From positions 1 to 64,000 of IMG/VR virus record IMGVR_UViG_3300045999_008257: a stretch of 64,000 nt of DNA. One strand, 5' to 3'. The notes under the pieces are model-generated. The model made no database searches, was not told where the DNA came from, and was given only the letters and a program-made list of their open reading frames with translations. The position numbers were made by a program, and so were the translations under genes. Of the stretch, positions 4,621-61,509 are shown piece after piece (position 1 is the first letter of the stretch; every line of letters starts with the position of its first letter). The DNA comes from a virus.

Positions 4621-5991
4621 ATGGCTCGCGGCGGCAGACCCGGCAAAAAACGGACCCAATACGTCCGCGACGCGCAGGGGCAGTTCGCCTCAACACCAGG
4701 CGGCGGCAAAAAGGCCACGCCTAGCGCCGTCAGGAAGGCCGCTAAGGCCGCTGCCTTGAAGGGCGGCACACTAGCAGCCAGAACCTCGCTGAAGAAGTCC
4801 AGAGCCAAGCTCAAGAGCATCGACAAGGCAGACCCAACCCTTCAAACTTCACTATCAAAACGTGCACAGAAAGGTGCCGTAACTCGTGGCAGCAAAAATC
4901 TAACCAAGACGATTAAGTCCAGCCGAACACGACTAATTGGTGCCAAGCCTAACGCAAATACAATCAAGAAAAAGCGGCCAGTTTCGATGGCTTACATCTT
5001 GAAAAATGTGACTCGTTCAATGTCGCCAGATGATGCGCAACGTGTGCTAGGGAAGAAGCCGCTTGCAAAACGGAAAATCAGTGCTCCATCTAAAGCAAAC
5101 ACAATCAAGAAAAAGCGCAGTCCTATACTTACCGCTAAACCATTACAAAAGCCAGCGGCTGAACGTCCGGGCTCAATGACTTCTATCTTGAAAAATACGC
5201 TACGCACATTAGCTCAAGCTGATGCGCAACGCATAAGAGAAATTGAATCAATTACAGGGCAAAAAATTAAGCCAATTAAGCAGCGTGCTGCCGCTATTGC
5301 TGCTGGAGATCGCGTCAGGAGCACGGCCAAGGGCGGCAAGGTTGCGGACACCCTGCGGGCGGGTCTTCGCGAGCTGGCGCAGAGCGATGCCAGGGCCATG
5401 CGAGAAATGTCAAAGATTGTGAAGGATGCGACGCCAAAGGTGGCTGGAGCCAAGCGGAAGGATAGGGTTAAAGGATCTGCAAAATCCAAGACGATGACCA
5501 TGGCGAAGATGCAATCAGGGCCACCAGGTAATCCGCTAGGCGGCAAAAGATCCGTTAAAAGACTTGCGAGCATGACAACCAAAGGTAAAACAATGAAGCC
5601 TCCCGTCACTCTAAAAGGATTAATTCGTGCCGGAGGTAATCGGTGGCAAAAAAATCAAATGGATAGAGTTTATTTTAATAATCTAGGGTCAAGATCTGGG
5701 TTGGATGTTGACTATTATAAATCAGGAAACATTTACTCTGCCGCTGTTCAAGGTAAAGGAATTAGTAATTCCAGGGCTCGCGAAGTCGTTGCTAGCTTAA
5801 GAGATGCCAAGTTGTTTTATGATCGACAAACGAGGTCGATGAACTTAAAAATGACAAGAAACCCTTCGGTAAGGTTACAGCAATTTAGGACGGCTGAAAA
5901 GCTCGCTAAACAAGATATGAAAAAAATAGAAAAATCAGCAAGAATGAAAACCAAGCGTCAACGCAAAACAAACAGCAAAAAGCCCGGCTAA
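4621..5991 (+). CDS. Basic late protein with shared N-terminal module, type A (456 aa)
   Basis: The N-terminal 100 or so residues (KKRTQYVRDAQGQFASTPGG, then AVRKAAKAAALKGGTLAA, then KRAQKGAVTRG) are shared with the products at 10297 and 11215. The middle is a long lysine/arginine-rich disordered region with internal repeats: two copies of NTIKKK and two of SM..ILKN followed by a DAQR motif. From about residue 335 a compact domain appears (GGNRWQKNQMDRVYFNNLG, then GLDVDYYKSGNIYSA, then ISNSRAREVV); I do not recognise it. The RD.xGQFAS motif is common near the N-terminus of phage head proteins. Very basic, so inferred to bind DNA, possibly inside the head. Own late motif upstream. Confidence 0.75.
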   Translation: MARGGRPGKKRTQYVRDAQGQFASTPGGGKKATPSAVRKAAKAAALKGGTLAARTSLKKSRAKLKSIDKADPTLQTSLSKRAQKGAVTRGSKNLTKTIKSSRTRLIGAKPNANTIKKKRPVSMAYILKNVTRSMSPDDAQRVLGKKPLAKRKISAPSKANTIKKKRSPILTAKPLQKPAAERPGSMTSILKNTLRTLAQADAQRIREIESITGQKIKPIKQRAAAIAAGDRVRSTAKGGKVADTLRAGLRELAQSDARAMREMSKIVKDATPKVAGAKRKDRVKGSAKSKTMTMAKMQSGPPGNPLGGKRSVKRLASMTTKGKTMKPPVTLKGLIRAGGNRWQKNQMDRVYFNNLGSRSGLDVDYYKSGNIYSAAVQGKGISNSRAREVVASLRDAKLFYDRQTRSMNLKMTRNPSVRLQQFRTAEKLAKQDMKKIEKSARMKTKRQRKTNSKKPG

Positions 5992-7925: not shown

Positions 7926-8204
7926 ATGCCTGATTCTGTTTTGGCATTTCTGCCGGTTGGCAATGGCGATGGCGATGGCTATGGCGATGGCGATGGCTAT
8001 GGCGATGGCTATGGTTATGGCAATGGCTATGGTTATGGCTATGGCTATGGCGATGGTTATGGTTATGGTTATGGCGATGGCTATGGCGATAATTATGGTT
8101 ATGGCGATGGCTATGGCGATAATTATGGTTATGGTTATGGCGATGGCTATGGCTATGGCGATGGCGATGGTTATGAAACACCGTCCATTAGAATTAGAAA
8201 ATGA
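7926..8204 (+). CDS. Low-complexity Gly-Tyr/Asp repeat protein (92 aa)
   Basis: Starts MPDSVLAFLPVG and then consists of 36 dipeptide units: GY, GD, a few GN, and two NY. It ends ETPSIRIRK. The unit is a hexanucleotide, so protein and DNA repeats coincide exactly. I chose ATG 7926 over a TTG at 7863 because the hairpin at 7876-7897 lies between them. Alternating Gly-Tyr is typical of adhesive, silk-like or phase-separating segments; Gly-Asp alternation would bind cations. The function is unknown. The stop codon overlaps the next gene by four bases. Reading frames on both strands stay open through the repeat, so coding on this strand rests on context. Confidence 0.6.
   Translation: MPDSVLAFLPVGNGDGDGYGDGDGYGDGYGYGNGYGYGYGYGDGYGYGYGDGYGDNYGYGDGYGDNYGYGYGDGYGYGDGDGYETPSIRIRK
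7959..8174 (+). repeat. Hexanucleotide repeat, 36 units (GGCGAT / GGCTAT / GGTTAT)
   Basis: 216 bases of uninterrupted 6-base units, mostly GGCTAT, GGCGAT and GGTTAT, with two GGCAAT and two AATTAT. A 30-base block containing the GATAATTATGG junction is itself duplicated in tandem around 8083-8142. Unit count changes would keep the frame, so length could vary by slippage without destroying the gene. Confidence 0.9.
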
Positions 8205-9935: not shown

Positions 9936-10303
9936 GATTCACTGGGAAGCAGAGAGATTGTAACACTATTGGAGGTGTTGGGCTTAACGCACATTTTTAA
10001 GCTGTCATACAAAGTTCCTTTGTGAACCACGCAATCAATTGATCTTACTTCAATAGATGCCGCTTTTTTGTCGATGGAGACTTCAAATGCAGTTTGATCA
10101 CCAACAACAAATCGCACAAATTTAACACCATCAAGAACTTTAACGTTTTGCGTTAAAGAATGACCGGTTTCAATGCGCATGGCCAGGGGGATTAGATCAG
10201 TGACAGATCCTATCGTAAGCCATCGCGGCCAACCCTCTGATGATTGCAACAAAATGAAACAATCGGGAAAGCTACAGTATGTAACCCAATCTTCCCATGC
10301 CAC
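9932..10303 (-). CDS. Hypothetical protein (123 aa)
   Basis: Starts MAWEDWVTYCSFPDCFILLQ and continues SEGWPRWLTIGSVTDLIP. It looks like a small beta-rich protein of a kind often seen in phage accessory genes. Its ATG at 10303 overlaps, on the opposite strand, the ATG at 10297 of the rightward gene. Its first codons are antisense to that gene's leader and late motif. A later start such as the Met in LAMRIETGHSL would avoid this, but the N-terminal aromatic-rich segment looks genuine. Confidence 0.6.
   Translation of the reverse strand: MAWEDWVTYCSFPDCFILLQSSEGWPRWLTIGSVTDLIPLAMRIETGHSLTQNVKVLDGVKFVRFVVGDQTAFEVSIDKKAASIEVRSIDCVVHKGTLYDSLKMCVKPNTSNSVTISLLPSES
10264..10274 (+). promoter_or_regulatory. 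Late motif CGGGAAAGCTA
   Basis: Variant with G at the seventh position, 22 bases before ATG 10297 and lying inside the opposite-strand gene. The identical variant occurs at 11182. Confidence 0.55.
10264..10296 (+). repeat. Duplicated 33-base leader, copy 1
   Basis: The 33 bases from the late motif to the start codon are identical to 11182-11214. Similarity continues into both coding regions, showing a duplication that included the promoter. Confidence 0.85.
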
Positions 10304-11181
10304 GCGGTCGCCGCCGTACTCAATACGTTAGGGACAACTCTGGTCGCTTCGCCTCGACTCCCGGAGGCGGCCCGTCCAAATCATCGCCAGCAGCCGTCAG
10401 GAAGGCCGCTAAGGCCGCTACGCTGAAGGGCGGCAGCCTGGCCGCTCGGACGAGTCTCAAGCGGTCCAAGGCTAAAATGGCAAGCATAGACAAGGCTGAT
10501 CAGAGTCTTAAGACTTCACTCTCCAAGCGAGCGCAAAAAGGAGCAGTAACTCGCAGTCAAAAAGCCGCTCGTGCCGCGATCAAATCCAGTCGCAAGCGTA
10601 TTGAACCAACAAGCGCAACGCTAAAGCGAAACAGGACGGTAAAAGGATTGCTTTTGGTTGGCATAAAAAGAAAAACTAAGTTGATCAAAGAGCTAACCGC
10701 TGCAAAAGAAAAGAGGCAACAAGAGAAAAAAACCGCCGCTAAAGTTAGCGCTGCAATCAAGAAAGGGCCTGTACCGTCAAAATCAAAATCAAAGACAGCG
10801 CCACCACCCCCTCCGCCGTCAACATCTAAGAAGTCAAATGATGGCGAACCTGTATTAGTCCAAAAAGAATCTAAAGCCCCTGGATACAAAATACCAAAAC
10901 CCCCTGCTGGATATAAAGCATCAGAATCGCCTAGCAAGACGCCATCCAAGGGACGGAGAATGGAGGCACGCATTTCTACTATTAGAACAAACCGATTAAG
11001 GAAAGATGGATCGCCAGATCGACAATGGAAAGCATATCAAACCGAAAAGCGAGCGGCAGAATTCTTGAGAGCTGCCGCTAGATTTGCCGAGCGAAAGGGT
11101 ATTAGCCTAGATCAGGCATTGCGAAGCGGCCCAAAAAATAGCACGGCAAAAAGCAGGAAAAAGAAAAGAAATAGGTCTTAA
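10297..11181 (+). CDS. Basic late protein with shared N-terminal module, type B (294 aa)
   Basis: Starts MPRGRRRTQYVRDNSGRFAS and carries the same roughly 100-residue lysine-rich module as the products at 4621 and 11215, including the central SIDKAD and KRAQKGAVTR segments. A proline-rich linker (KTAPPPPPPSTSKK) follows. The C-terminal part from about residue 220 is a basic helical stretch (TNRLRKDGSPDRQWKAYQTE, then EFLRAAARFAERKGISLDQA). No known domain recognised there. Strongly basic throughout, so nucleic-acid binding is likely. It is adjacent to and clearly a duplicate of the next gene over the N-terminal half. Confidence 0.75.
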   Translation: MPRGRRRTQYVRDNSGRFASTPGGGPSKSSPAAVRKAAKAATLKGGSLAARTSLKRSKAKMASIDKADQSLKTSLSKRAQKGAVTRSQKAARAAIKSSRKRIEPTSATLKRNRTVKGLLLVGIKRKTKLIKELTAAKEKRQQEKKTAAKVSAAIKKGPVPSKSKSKTAPPPPPPSTSKKSNDGEPVLVQKESKAPGYKIPKPPAGYKASESPSKTPSKGRRMEARISTIRTNRLRKDGSPDRQWKAYQTEKRAAEFLRAAARFAERKGISLDQALRSGPKNSTAKSRKKKRNRS

Positions 11182-11192
11182 CGGGAAAGCTA
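11182..11192 (+). promoter_or_regulatory. Late motif CGGGAAAGCTA (duplicate copy)
   Basis: Directly follows the TAA of the preceding gene and lies 22 bases before ATG 11215. Identical to the copy at 10264. Confidence 0.55.
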
Positions 11193-11214
11193 CAGTATGT
11201 AACCCAATCTTCCC
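11182..11214 (+). repeat. Duplicated 33-base leader, copy 2
   Basis: Identical to 10264-10296. Retention of a perfect leader while the coding parts diverge suggests either recent duplication or constraint on the leader. Confidence 0.85.
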
Positions 11215-12375
11215 ATGCCACGCGGTCGCCGCCGTACCCAATACGTTAGGGATGCTTCAGGGCAGTTTGCCTCGACTCCCGGCGGTGGCCCGTCCAAATC
11301 CTCACCATCGGCCGTCAGGAAGGCTGCTAAGGCCGCTGCCTTGAAGGGTGGCACGTTAGCCGCTAGAACCTCGCTGAAGAAGTCCAAGGCCAAGCTGGCA
11401 GCATCTCCCAGTCCCCAGCAGAAGGGCGCTGTAACCCGTGGACAAAAGGCAGCCCGCGCTGCGATCAAATCTAGCAAAACAAGGCTAAAGACTGGCTCAG
11501 AATCTAAACTTCGCAAGGGTCTGGCGACAACTCTTTTGACAATAGCGAAGAGCAAGCCCAAAGCGAAACCTGTTGAAGCAAAATCTACCACAAAAGCAAA
11601 ATCTACTGCTAAAGCAAAGCCCACTGCAAAAACAAAGAAGACCACGACTAAAGCGCAACCTACGCAGAAAAAAGTAGAAACAAAGCCTAAAACATCAAAG
11701 AAAGTAGAAGTAAAGCAAGCTGACAAAAAGCCGCTGGCCAGGAAGGAGAATTTTGCAGCACAACGCGCTAAGCGAATGGCAGAAAAAACAGGAGTGATTC
11801 CTGGCAGCAAGTTTGAAAGTGGTCAGGCTGTTAGAACAATGAGCCTGAAGGAAATGCGTAGTGCTGTGATTAAGTCTGTCAAAGGAGCGGGCAAGCTTTC
11901 AATGGCCGCAATTGCGGTTGGGGCCGGCACGGGAACAGGTATATCGAGGATAGAATCAGGCCGGATGCCTAAGACGCGCAGTGAGTGGGAAAGAGCCTAT
12001 CGTGCTTTGGTAAGGCTGCCCATGAGTGACAGGGGAAGAAAAGAGAAGCCTGGTGTTATCAACGGCATTGATATTCACAAAAACTTTAGGCCATGGGCTG
12101 TTTTTGGATTGAACCCCAAGACGGCAAGTAAGGCTGATGTAGAACAAGCCTACCGAAGGATAGCAAAAAAGGTGCATCCTGATGCTGGTGGTCGTCAAAA
12201 AGATTTTGAACGGATTAAGTCTATGCGTGACTCGATCGTTTCAATGAGAAACATAGGTGAACAGATGAAGATCGACGCCAAAAAAAGCAGCCCTAAAACT
12301 AGCTCAAAAGCCAAGAAAAAATCTCAATCTAGAACCAGGTCTTCTATACTAATGCTGCCGCCATCCAGATCGTAA
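11215..12375 (+). CDS. Basic late protein with shared N-terminal module and C-terminal J-domain (386 aa)
   Basis: The N-terminal module (MPRGRRRTQYVRDASGQFAS, then KSSPSAVRKAAKAAALKG) matches the products at 4621 and 10297. Next comes a lysine/threonine-rich low-complexity stretch with KSTAKAKPTAK-like repeats, about residues 115-180. Residues about 290-340 form a J-domain: PWAVFGLNPKTASKADVEQA, then YRRIAKKVHPDAGG with the HPD triad at 321-323. J-domains stimulate Hsp70 (DnaK), so this protein may recruit host DnaK. The 115-residue segment before it contains a glycine-rich helix and is unrecognised. A late protein with a J-domain on a DNA-binding-like tail is unusual. Confidence 0.8.
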   Translation: MPRGRRRTQYVRDASGQFASTPGGGPSKSSPSAVRKAAKAAALKGGTLAARTSLKKSKAKLAASPSPQQKGAVTRGQKAARAAIKSSKTRLKTGSESKLRKGLATTLLTIAKSKPKAKPVEAKSTTKAKSTAKAKPTAKTKKTTTKAQPTQKKVETKPKTSKKVEVKQADKKPLARKENFAAQRAKRMAEKTGVIPGSKFESGQAVRTMSLKEMRSAVIKSVKGAGKLSMAAIAVGAGTGTGISRIESGRMPKTRSEWERAYRALVRLPMSDRGRKEKPGVINGIDIHKNFRPWAVFGLNPKTASKADVEQAYRRIAKKVHPDAGGRQKDFERIKSMRDSIVSMRNIGEQMKIDAKKSSPKTSSKAKKKSQSRTRSSILMLPPSRS

Positions 12376-59736: not shown

Positions 59737-59991
59737 ATGAATTTTCAACCTCCAGCGCTTAAGCCGCGCCCGGTCCATCCTTCCTCTAGGCCTCAACCAG
59801 TGAAGCCTCGGCCATTAGATCGCCCCAAGGCGCAAACCGCCATGATTACAACAGAATATGCAAATCGCTTGCTTGCATTGTTTGCGCTATTGTTTGTTGT
59901 CTCTTTGGGATCTTGCACCATTGCGCCTATCCTTGGGGCATTAGAAGGTGCTAGGATTCCCGCTCCAGCTAAAACCGCGATGGTGGCGTGA
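59737..59991 (+). CDS. Proline-rich membrane protein (84 aa)
   Basis: MNFQPPALKPRPVHPSSRPQ, then one membrane helix (RLLALFALLFVVSLGSCTIA). It has a better Shine-Dalgarno (GGAAG) than its neighbours, 17 bases upstream. Its cysteine just after the helix could be part of a lipobox-like motif. Function unknown. Confidence 0.5.
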   Translation: MNFQPPALKPRPVHPSSRPQPVKPRPLDRPKAQTAMITTEYANRLLALFALLFVVSLGSCTIAPILGALEGARIPAPAKTAMVA

Positions 59992-60371
59992 TGAACTTCA
60001 TTCAGTGCGCGGAATTACTAGAGTCTGAAGGCTTTGGTAATGCAGCTAAGTTTTTGCGTAATTTCAACAGTAATTCTGTGGACAATGACACAGATCTGAT
60101 GAGTTTACTGACTGACCCTAACATCAGTCAAGGTGCAAAAATTGGCGTCTTGGCTGACATGGTTGTGCCGAATGAACCAGAGCCAAATTTGAACAAAGGT
60201 TATTCTGAAGTGCAGAATAACTTGCAAGAAATTGCGATGGTGCAATGGATGGCGAGGAAGTCAATAAGGAAAGAGATGATTGGGATTGCGGCTAGTTTGC
60301 AAGAAGTTGCGACAACGCAATGGATAAATGAATGGGCAAACAATGTAAAAACAGTTGATAATGAGGCTTGA
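59991..60371 (+). CDS. Hypothetical protein (126 aa)
   Basis: ATG 59991 gives MNFIQCAELLESEGFGNAAK, then FLRNFNSNSVDNDTDLMSLL and MARKSIRKEMIGIAASLQEV. The "A..LE..GF..AA..LR" opening resembles that of the gene at 61222 ("AEDFVNWLRCNGYVKIANKL"). Contains two MVQWM/TTQWI-like repeats. Function unknown. Confidence 0.5.
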   Translation: MNFIQCAELLESEGFGNAAKFLRNFNSNSVDNDTDLMSLLTDPNISQGAKIGVLADMVVPNEPEPNLNKGYSEVQNNLQEIAMVQWMARKSIRKEMIGIAASLQEVATTQWINEWANNVKTVDNEA

Positions 60372-60376
60372 TTGTG

Positions 60377-60660
60377 ATGAAAATTCTGCGCGGCGGATCG
60401 TGGTTTAACCTACCCCTCAACTGCCGCTCGGCCATTCGGAGCCGCAGCCACCCGGTCAGCCTAAGCCGCTTTTGTGGTTTCCGCGTGGTCTGTCTCTCGT
60501 CACCTTCACCTTCAATCTTTCAAATGGTCATGAAACTATTGCGCGGCGGCTCTTGGGCCGACCTTCCTCGGAACTGCCGCTCGGCCTGCCGCATCGGGGA
60601 CCACCCGGACAACCGCAGCATCTATTGCGGTTTCCGCGTCACTCAGCCACCAGGTGCATC
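60377..60660 (+). repeat. Two tandem variable-repeat-like segments in the FGE-like gene
   Basis: Copy 1 at about 60383-60510 and copy 2 at about 60536-60650. Constant parts such as TGCCGCTCGGCC and GGTTTCCGCGT are shared; variable codons are mostly NNC or NNT with the first two bases changed (AGC, ATC, CGC, GAC, GTC, AAC). GC-richer than the flanks. Confidence 0.6.
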
Positions 60661-61225
60661 CTCGTTTGAAATTACAATGGTTCCCATTTTAGCAGGTGAA
60701 TTCATGATGGGAACATCAAGCGACCTACATAGCCGGAACGAAGAAGGACCGCAACATTTAGTGAATATAAACAGCTTTTCAATGAGCCTAGCGCCTATTA
60801 CTCAAGCGCAGTGGCGGGCAGTGGCATCATTGCCAAAAGTTGAAATAAATCTAAAGCTAGATCCATCTCATTTCAAAGGTGATGATCTGCCTGTTGAGAG
60901 CGTAAACTGGTATGAGGCAATGGAGTTTTGTCGGAGGTTAAGCGCTGCAACGGGAGAAAAATATACACTACCAACAGAAGCGCAGTGGGAATATGCTTGC
61001 CGTGCTGGTACTACAACGCCATATAACACAGGGGATGAAATCACAAAAGAACAAGCGAACTATGGCAGCAGTAAAACCACACCAGTGCTCAAGTATCCTC
61101 CTAATGCCTGGGGATTGCATGATATGCACGGTAATGTTTGGGAATGGTGCTTAGATGATTGGCACTCTAATTATGAAGGTGCTCCAAATGATGGTAGCGC
61201 TTGGCTTGATGGAGATGCAAAATGA
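60377..61225 (+). CDS. Formylglycine-enzyme-like protein with duplicated, permuted C-terminal segment (282 aa)
   Basis: Residues about 100-282 are an FGE-sulfatase (SUMF1-like) domain: FEITMVPILAGEFMMGTSSD, FSMSLAPITQAQWRAVASLP, ESVNWYEAMEFCRRLSAATG, LPTEAQWEYACRAGTTTPYN and DMHGNVWEWCLDDWHSNYEG. It stops after GSAWLDGDAK, exactly where the family's final RGGSW...GFRV segment should come. That segment instead occurs twice at the N-terminus: ILRGGSWFNLPLNCRSAIRS to GFRVVC (residues 4-42) and LLRGGSWADLPRNCRSACRI to GFRVT (55-90). The two copies differ mainly at positions that vary in retroelement-diversified proteins. TTG 60368 is an alternative start. Probably a binding rather than catalytic protein. 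Confidence 0.75.
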   Translation: MKILRGGSWFNLPLNCRSAIRSRSHPVSLSRFCGFRVVCLSSPSPSIFQMVMKLLRGGSWADLPRNCRSACRIGDHPDNRSIYCGFRVTQPPGASSFEITMVPILAGEFMMGTSSDLHSRNEEGPQHLVNINSFSMSLAPITQAQWRAVASLPKVEINLKLDPSHFKGDDLPVESVNWYEAMEFCRRLSAATGEKYTLPTEAQWEYACRAGTTTPYNTGDEITKEQANYGSSKTTPVLKYPPNAWGLHDMHGNVWEWCLDDWHSNYEGAPNDGSAWLDGDAK

Positions 61226-61509
61226 GACTACAAACTGCTGAAGATTTCGTAAATTGGCTGCGATGCAATGGCTATGTTAAGATTGCAAATAAACTTCAAA
61301 AAGATTTAGACGCTAATGCTGATATGGTGATAGACAACAAAGAACCTGTGCTGCATTGCTTGTTAAATGAAGATACAGAAGTGCAATTGCCGCAAGTTTG
61401 TGTGTTTGACGATCCTGATGGTGTTGTAAATGACTGCGCATTTGCTAGAAATCTTTGTGCACAAGGTAGACTTAAAACAGCATGTGAATACTATAAAAAA
61501 GAGATATGA
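61222..61509 (+). CDS. Hypothetical protein (95 aa)
   Basis: MRLQTAEDFVNWLRCNGYVK, then LHCLLNEDTEVQLPQVCVFD and CAFARNLCAQGRLKTACEYY. Several cysteines. Overlaps the FGE-like gene by ATGA, so it is made from the same message. Function unknown. Confidence 0.5.
   Translation: MRLQTAEDFVNWLRCNGYVKIANKLQKDLDANADMVIDNKEPVLHCLLNEDTEVQLPQVCVFDDPDGVVNDCAFARNLCAQGRLKTACEYYKKEI

Follow-up and report, generated by a model that had tools for sequence, protein, structure and literature searches.

How does a phage gene come to carry two copies of the variable segment of a diversity-generating retroelement (DGR) target at its N-terminus, ahead of a core that lacks that segment, with no reverse transcriptase (RT) nearby? 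The gene in question occupies positions 60377–61225 of a stretch of viral DNA of 64,000 nucleotides (the window; positions 1 to 64,000 of IMG/VR record IMGVR_UViG_3300045999_008257). The source record has 64,224 bases, and the window represents part of a tailed-phage genome, with genes for terminase, portal, minor head, tape-measure and tail proteins. We consider it probable (roughly 0.6) that the gene product is a phage-encoded target of a host DGR, in which the variable repeat (VR) has been duplicated ahead of a truncated core with the FGE/C-type-lectin fold.

The Pfam family FGE-sulfatase (PF03781) matched amino acids 100–278 of the protein, which is 282 residues long when counted from ATG 60377 (E=6×10−53; 180.6 bits versus a cut-off of 23.3). 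The best stretch covered profile positions 4–209 of 255 and thus the C-terminal part of the profile is absent from the protein end. PHROG 18508 matched the protein in three stretches. We then used a custom FGE-VR profile of 240 positions, built on 48 canonical proteins taken from both viral and host loci. Its positions 201–239 matched amino acids 2–40 (independent E value 4×10−13), positions 199–237 matched amino acids 51–89 (1×10−12) and positions 1–195 matched amino acids 101–281 (6×10−85). The order in the window protein is therefore the C-terminal segment twice, then the core, as a preliminary description of this DNA had proposed. Canonical relatives, such as those of loci L025 and L027, were matched from profile position 1 to 238–240 in one piece. 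VR1 and VR2 (Table 1) form a direct repeat with a unit of 153 nt and 72% identity across 116 nt. Their variable codons had been described as mostly NNC or NNT, and 15 of 17 in VR1 and likewise 15 of 17 in VR2 end in C or T. Across 59 equal-length viral repeats, the variable codons mostly end in C and the framework codons are fixed.

The same layout was found in related phages. An 80-kb contig (L001; 82% identical) has two repeats followed by the core, as in the window, while L003 has three repeats and L002 four ahead of a core that stops near the same position (DGSAW followed by a few residues). The 87.8-kb contig L004 carries one repeat fused to an FGE core and, just upstream (L004:8297–10426), about 13 consecutive stand-alone micro-open reading frames (micro-ORFs), mostly of 44–66 amino acids. 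Each contains one repeat module, except one with two. Most of their ATG starts overlap the end of the previous ORF, several stand behind a Shine–Dalgarno-like GGAGG, and the NNC bias at third positions is lost in this array. In contigs L264 (88 kb) and L286 (87 kb), a truncated FGE core is surrounded by some nine VR modules: the last upstream module is fused to the core, and further modules lie downstream. Between these two contigs, the module fused to the core and those upstream of it are different; the remainder is about 96% identical, and the core and downstream modules are nearly identical. At L005:10936–11181, two adjacent VR modules have repeats that are identical save for the first codon, which indicates a recent tandem duplication. 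Among related phages, the repeat array thus has anywhere between 1 and about 14 copies, and the window holds a two-copy form. Of the circular permutation suggested in the preliminary description, the permuted order and the duplication stand; permutation alone does not describe the locus.

Comparison of closely related phages showed where the repeats vary. L002 and L003 have no differences in 365 positions upstream, including VR1, and six in the 562 positions of the core; L002 holds one 153-nt unit more. Within VR3, all 13 differences fall at template adenines, as do 15 of the 16 in VR4, and none in either repeat is at a third codon position. Variation is here confined to template-adenine positions, a criterion of DGR targets. 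Between the window and L001, VR2 differs at 15 of 25 A sites and at 6 of 77 other sites (p=2.5×10−7), with a difference of 7.5% in the surroundings. We also found a viral VR, in L025, that agrees with a host template at all 77 non-A sites, with differences at 11 of 25 A sites. The likeness ends outside the repeat, and the L025 contig encodes phage-type helicases and a minor tail protein. Plain positive selection was rejected as an explanation, as the excess is absent at non-A and third positions. The adenine-restricted divergence supports the earlier view of these segments as DGR-type variable repeats, and the sequence comparisons suggest that repeats in some of these phages are still being rewritten. 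L002 and L003 share the 5′ variable codons of VR3 and differ in its 3′ part, a polarity that would fit cDNA conversion entering from the 3′ end, in this single case. VR1 behaves differently from VR2: between the window and L001 it differs at about 20 of 26 A sites and at 22–23 of 76 other sites. Given these many non-A differences, it is probable that another template served to rewrite VR1, or that VR1 was exchanged.

No RT family match (RVT_1) was found in the whole 64,224-base record, so the absence of an RT noted for the window holds beyond it. The same search was negative in 45 related viral records of up to 277 kb, including those of 172–277 kb; these records are fragments. We conclude that the window gene is not part of a complete DGR but at most a remote target of one.

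Where might such a DGR reside? The large terminase of the window is nearest to those of the Synechococcus and Prochlorococcus siphophages S-CBS2, S-CRES1-3 and PSS2, to which it is about 36% identical. A DGR was present in the genome of Cyanobium sp. Cruz CV13-4-11, which encodes an RT (PF00078, 1.9×10−16). Its template, located by pattern scan, starts some 25 nt past the RT stop codon and has 11 Asn codons, and FGE-VR target genes, two in all, flank the template and RT. The same RT clade and related templates occur in further Cyanobiaceae genomes, where repeats adjoining a template mostly have 0–1 non-A mismatches to it. Strong RT matches were obtained in only a handful of 300 Cyanobiaceae genomes, which makes the system patchy in the family. 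A 2020 survey reported DGRs to be absent from Synechococcus and Prochlorococcus (PMC7517822); the Cyanobiaceae genomes examined here do carry them. As an aside, one host DGR target gene (L079:3–1490) has a phage-lysozyme domain ahead of its FGE-VR part, and in L079 a small ORF lies ahead of the RT. The proposed search of phage and host for an RT and a template with AAC codons thus succeeded on the host side: Cyanobiaceae have both, including templates of the same family as the window repeats. It failed for the phage record, which has no RT, and for the exact template, as none of the VR2 type was among the templates found in 400 Cyanobiaceae genomes.

Among 2.9 million viral contigs, we found one relative of the Cyanobium RT (45% identical). 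Pattern scans for AAC templates in viral contigs yielded only a template-like copy in L086, plus a VR in L087, and a search of a plasmid collection gave no match. In the viral ORF at L086:270–884, a module that looks like a template and has 10 Asn codons is accompanied by a VR and by a fused stretch that by eye resembles the gene at 61222–61509. This ORF has no FGE core, and no RT match was obtained in its record.

We modelled VR2 together with the core, using an alignment that contained VR rows; an earlier model of the full ORF had been poor on the repeats, which few rows covered. The new model reached a pTM of 0.83. Its core aligned with PvdO (Z=17.1, root-mean-square deviation 3.0, 188 residues) and with Treponema denticola TvpA (PDB 2Y3C; Z=15.4, root-mean-square deviation 2.9, 177 residues). 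The structural aligner covered only residues 40–231 of the model. The FGE/C-type-lectin fold assigned earlier is hence well matched for the core, and the position of VR2 in it is weakly predicted; a permuted fold is a plausible inference.

As no viral RT was found and the terminase is nearest to those of Synechococcus siphophages, diversification in trans by a host DGR is the best reading. During infection, the host RT would copy the host's template while introducing random changes at adenines, and one or more of the phage repeats would be overwritten by the resulting cDNA. The phage would thus need no RT. VR2 may then complete the lectin fold from the N-terminal side, with VR1 as an additional or spare hypervariable module. 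We found no paper on host RTs acting on phage repeats, in a search that mainly covered freely accessible literature.

Several findings weigh against diversification by a host DGR. The host prediction depends on a terminase of 36% identity. Compared with the nearest sampled template, VR2 has 9 and VR1 16 non-A mismatches, so that either the template of the window is unsampled or its repeats have aged. VR2 is homologous to templates only as far as GGTTTCCGCGTC, so that the downstream initiation element (IMH) is not recognisable. No distinctive stem-loop was seen downstream of VRs, whether of phages or of hosts; one stretch of the window gave a better fold than shuffled sequences (z=−2.8), pairing with the start of the next repeat. 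The 22–23 non-A differences in VR1 between the window and L001 would need template switching or recombination. In the structural model, the pLDDT of VR2 is mostly 53–77.

Some of these points bear on other explanations. The phage repeats might be altered by homologous recombination with already diversified repeats of the host or of other phages, and not by retrohoming. Donors written from a single template would differ at adenines alone, and recombination with them would leave the same picture. Among the window genes is one for an exonuclease VIII-like protein, and genes for RecT- or Sak4-like annealing proteins occur in related phages. Moreover, modules have been gained, lost or exchanged in L002/L003 (one unit), L264/L286 (the swapped fused module) and L005 (the identical pair), and the non-A differences of VR1 between the window and L001 are in line with such exchange. 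However, we found no phage repeat that duplicates one of a host, and VR3 of L002 and L003 differs only in its 3′ part, as conversion from the 3′ end would predict. We regard recombination as less likely than retrohoming, but as a serious rival. The repeats could also be relics, diversified once before capture and since subject to ordinary drift. The third-position changes and the 9–16 non-A mismatches to known templates of the window VRs would be expected of such relics, as would the array in L004 without an NNC pattern. The excess of differences at A sites in VR2 of the window and L001, with other sites at the flanking rate, argues against drift, as do L002 and L003, whose genes are otherwise nearly the same and differ almost exclusively at A sites; we hold the relic explanation to be improbable.

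It is more improbable still that an RT and a template of the phage itself lie in genome parts missing from the record. The records are classed as linear and possibly fragments, which would allow for it, but neither the 45 related records, with their members of 172–277 kb, nor the viral contigs, with their one distant RT relative, speak for a phage-borne system. Finally, repetitive DNA can misassemble, and short segments can resemble each other by chance. We found no specific evidence of either, and the same order in independent contigs rules out an assembly accident; together with the strength of the match to each repeat (1×10−12 to 4×10−13), this leaves a negligible probability for artefact or chance, and an assembly artefact was rejected because the layout recurs.

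Related viral FGE genes with C-terminal repeats, outside the window, showed a further feature. The −1 frame holds their first repeat, or five repeats in the case of L005 (Table 1). An in-phase slippery heptamer stands just upstream of all 18 −1-frame repeats and of none of the 85 in-frame repeats (Fisher p=2×10−20; the loci are related, hence not fully independent). The heptamer is GGGAAAG in 12 cases, GGGGGAG in five and AAAAAAG in one, and in 12 of the 18 a Shine–Dalgarno-like GGAGG lies about 10 nt ahead of it. The 0 frame is usually open through to the second, in-frame repeat, and the repeat's own constant blocks are able to form a downstream hairpin. A Shine–Dalgarno-like GGAGG, an in-phase slippery heptamer and a downstream hairpin are the elements of dnaX-type programmed −1 frameshifting. 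These sequence features suggest that programmed −1 frameshifting selects the hypervariable C-terminus in these related loci, and L005 would be a ladder of five frameshift sites. Unlike dnaX-type frameshifting, the related loci would use the shift to choose between alternative hypervariable C-termini. Our literature search on frameshifting and DGRs together gave nothing beyond a general phage-annotation review.

Table 1. Positions of the window gene, its parts and neighbours, and of −1-frame repeats in related loci
Feature	Position	Strand	Remarks
Preceding small ORF	59988..60371	+	Overlaps start region; neighbour also kept in L001
Permuted FGE-fold protein, VR1–VR2–FGE core	60377..61225	+	ORF, Pfam, PHROG, custom profile
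VR1 (LRGGSWFNLPLNCRSAIRSRSHPVSLSRFCGFRV)	60386..60487	+	Immediately 3′ of start codon
Linker between VR1 and VR2	60488..60538	+	51 nt; in-frame ATG ahead of VR2
VR2 (LRGGSWADLPRNCRSACRIGDHPDNRSIYCGFRV)	60539..60640	+	Adjoins core
FGE/C-type-lectin core	60677..61219	+	Profile positions 1–195; ends DGSAWLDGDAK, without C-terminal VR
Following small ORF	61222..61509	+	By-eye likeness to L086 (LQRDLDACAD / LQKDLDANAD)
−1-frame VRs	L005:10765–11621, L006:2969, L009:10570, L011:9998 and 11097, L012:9664		Slippery heptamer upstream
−1-frame VRs	L016:10564, L017:8216, L019:1023, L020:10636, L021:10594		Slippery heptamer upstream
−1-frame VRs	L022:10633, L032:10549, L049:10639		Slippery heptamer upstream

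The reading frame of the window gene is open from 60368 to 61225, with TTG 60368, GTG 60374 and ATG 60377 as possible starts, and the downstream gene overlaps its end (ATGA). The neighbours are small ORFs, a thymidylate kinase gene and a replication-initiation-like gene, not tail genes; in L002–L005, helicases, primases or annealing proteins are encoded close by. A neighbourhood of replication and metabolism genes without tail genes favours an intracellular binder over a tail fibre, and our guess would be that the protein acts inside the cell, for example against host factors or defences. Elsewhere in the window, region 10264–11400 contains two stretches of 219 nt that are 83% identical and spaced by 918 nt; a third, related copy lies near 4726, and a tandem repeat with 12- and 18-nt steps lies within an ORF at 7928–8199.

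Known systems share parts of this arrangement. TvpA of T. denticola is likewise a DGR variable protein with the FGE-type C-type-lectin fold, and its variable segment is single and C-terminal. Mtd of Bordetella phage BPP-1 is a phage DGR target with a C-type-lectin fold; unlike the window, BPP-1 has its own RT and template repeat, and the target is a tail fibre with a C-terminal VR. Cyanobacterial DGRs with remote variable proteins (PMC7517822) resemble the present case in their AAC-codon templates, adenine-directed variation, C-type-lectin targets and, for some targets, distance from the RT. Here, by contrast, the target is in an RT-less phage, with several copies of the repeat at the N-terminus. 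Action in trans inside a single bacterial genome was inferred earlier for some loci of Thiohalocapsa PB-PSB1 (PMC10907252), a bacterium that also has targets with three tandem whole C-type-lectin domains. In the phage, the short variable segment alone is repeated, ahead of one truncated core. Tandem bare variable segments with a single core are a layout distinct from the known tandem whole lectin domains. A global DGR survey found C-type-lectin folds around VRs, as here, and near-universally C-terminal VRs, attributed to needed downstream cis elements (PMC8144416); in the window, both VRs are N-terminal and coding sequence follows them.

We put forward, as a tentative extension, that RT-less cyanophages borrow a host DGR and expand the VR into arrays, by which a single truncated lectin scaffold is provided with many hypervariable modules. 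These would take the form of in-frame N-terminal fusions (the window and L001–L003), stand-alone, translationally coupled micro-proteins (L004 and L264/L286) or C-terminal tandem repeats chosen by programmed −1 frameshifting (L005, L009, L011 and others). In existing descriptions, DGR VRs almost always occur singly at the C-terminus, with the RT encoded in the same element; the present phages lack an RT and have several VRs at the N-terminus. A translational choice between hypervariable modules, if true, would be a new route to display diversity from one gene. If a host RT is responsible for the variation, the phage would be exploiting a hypermutation system of bacteria to vary a gene of its own.
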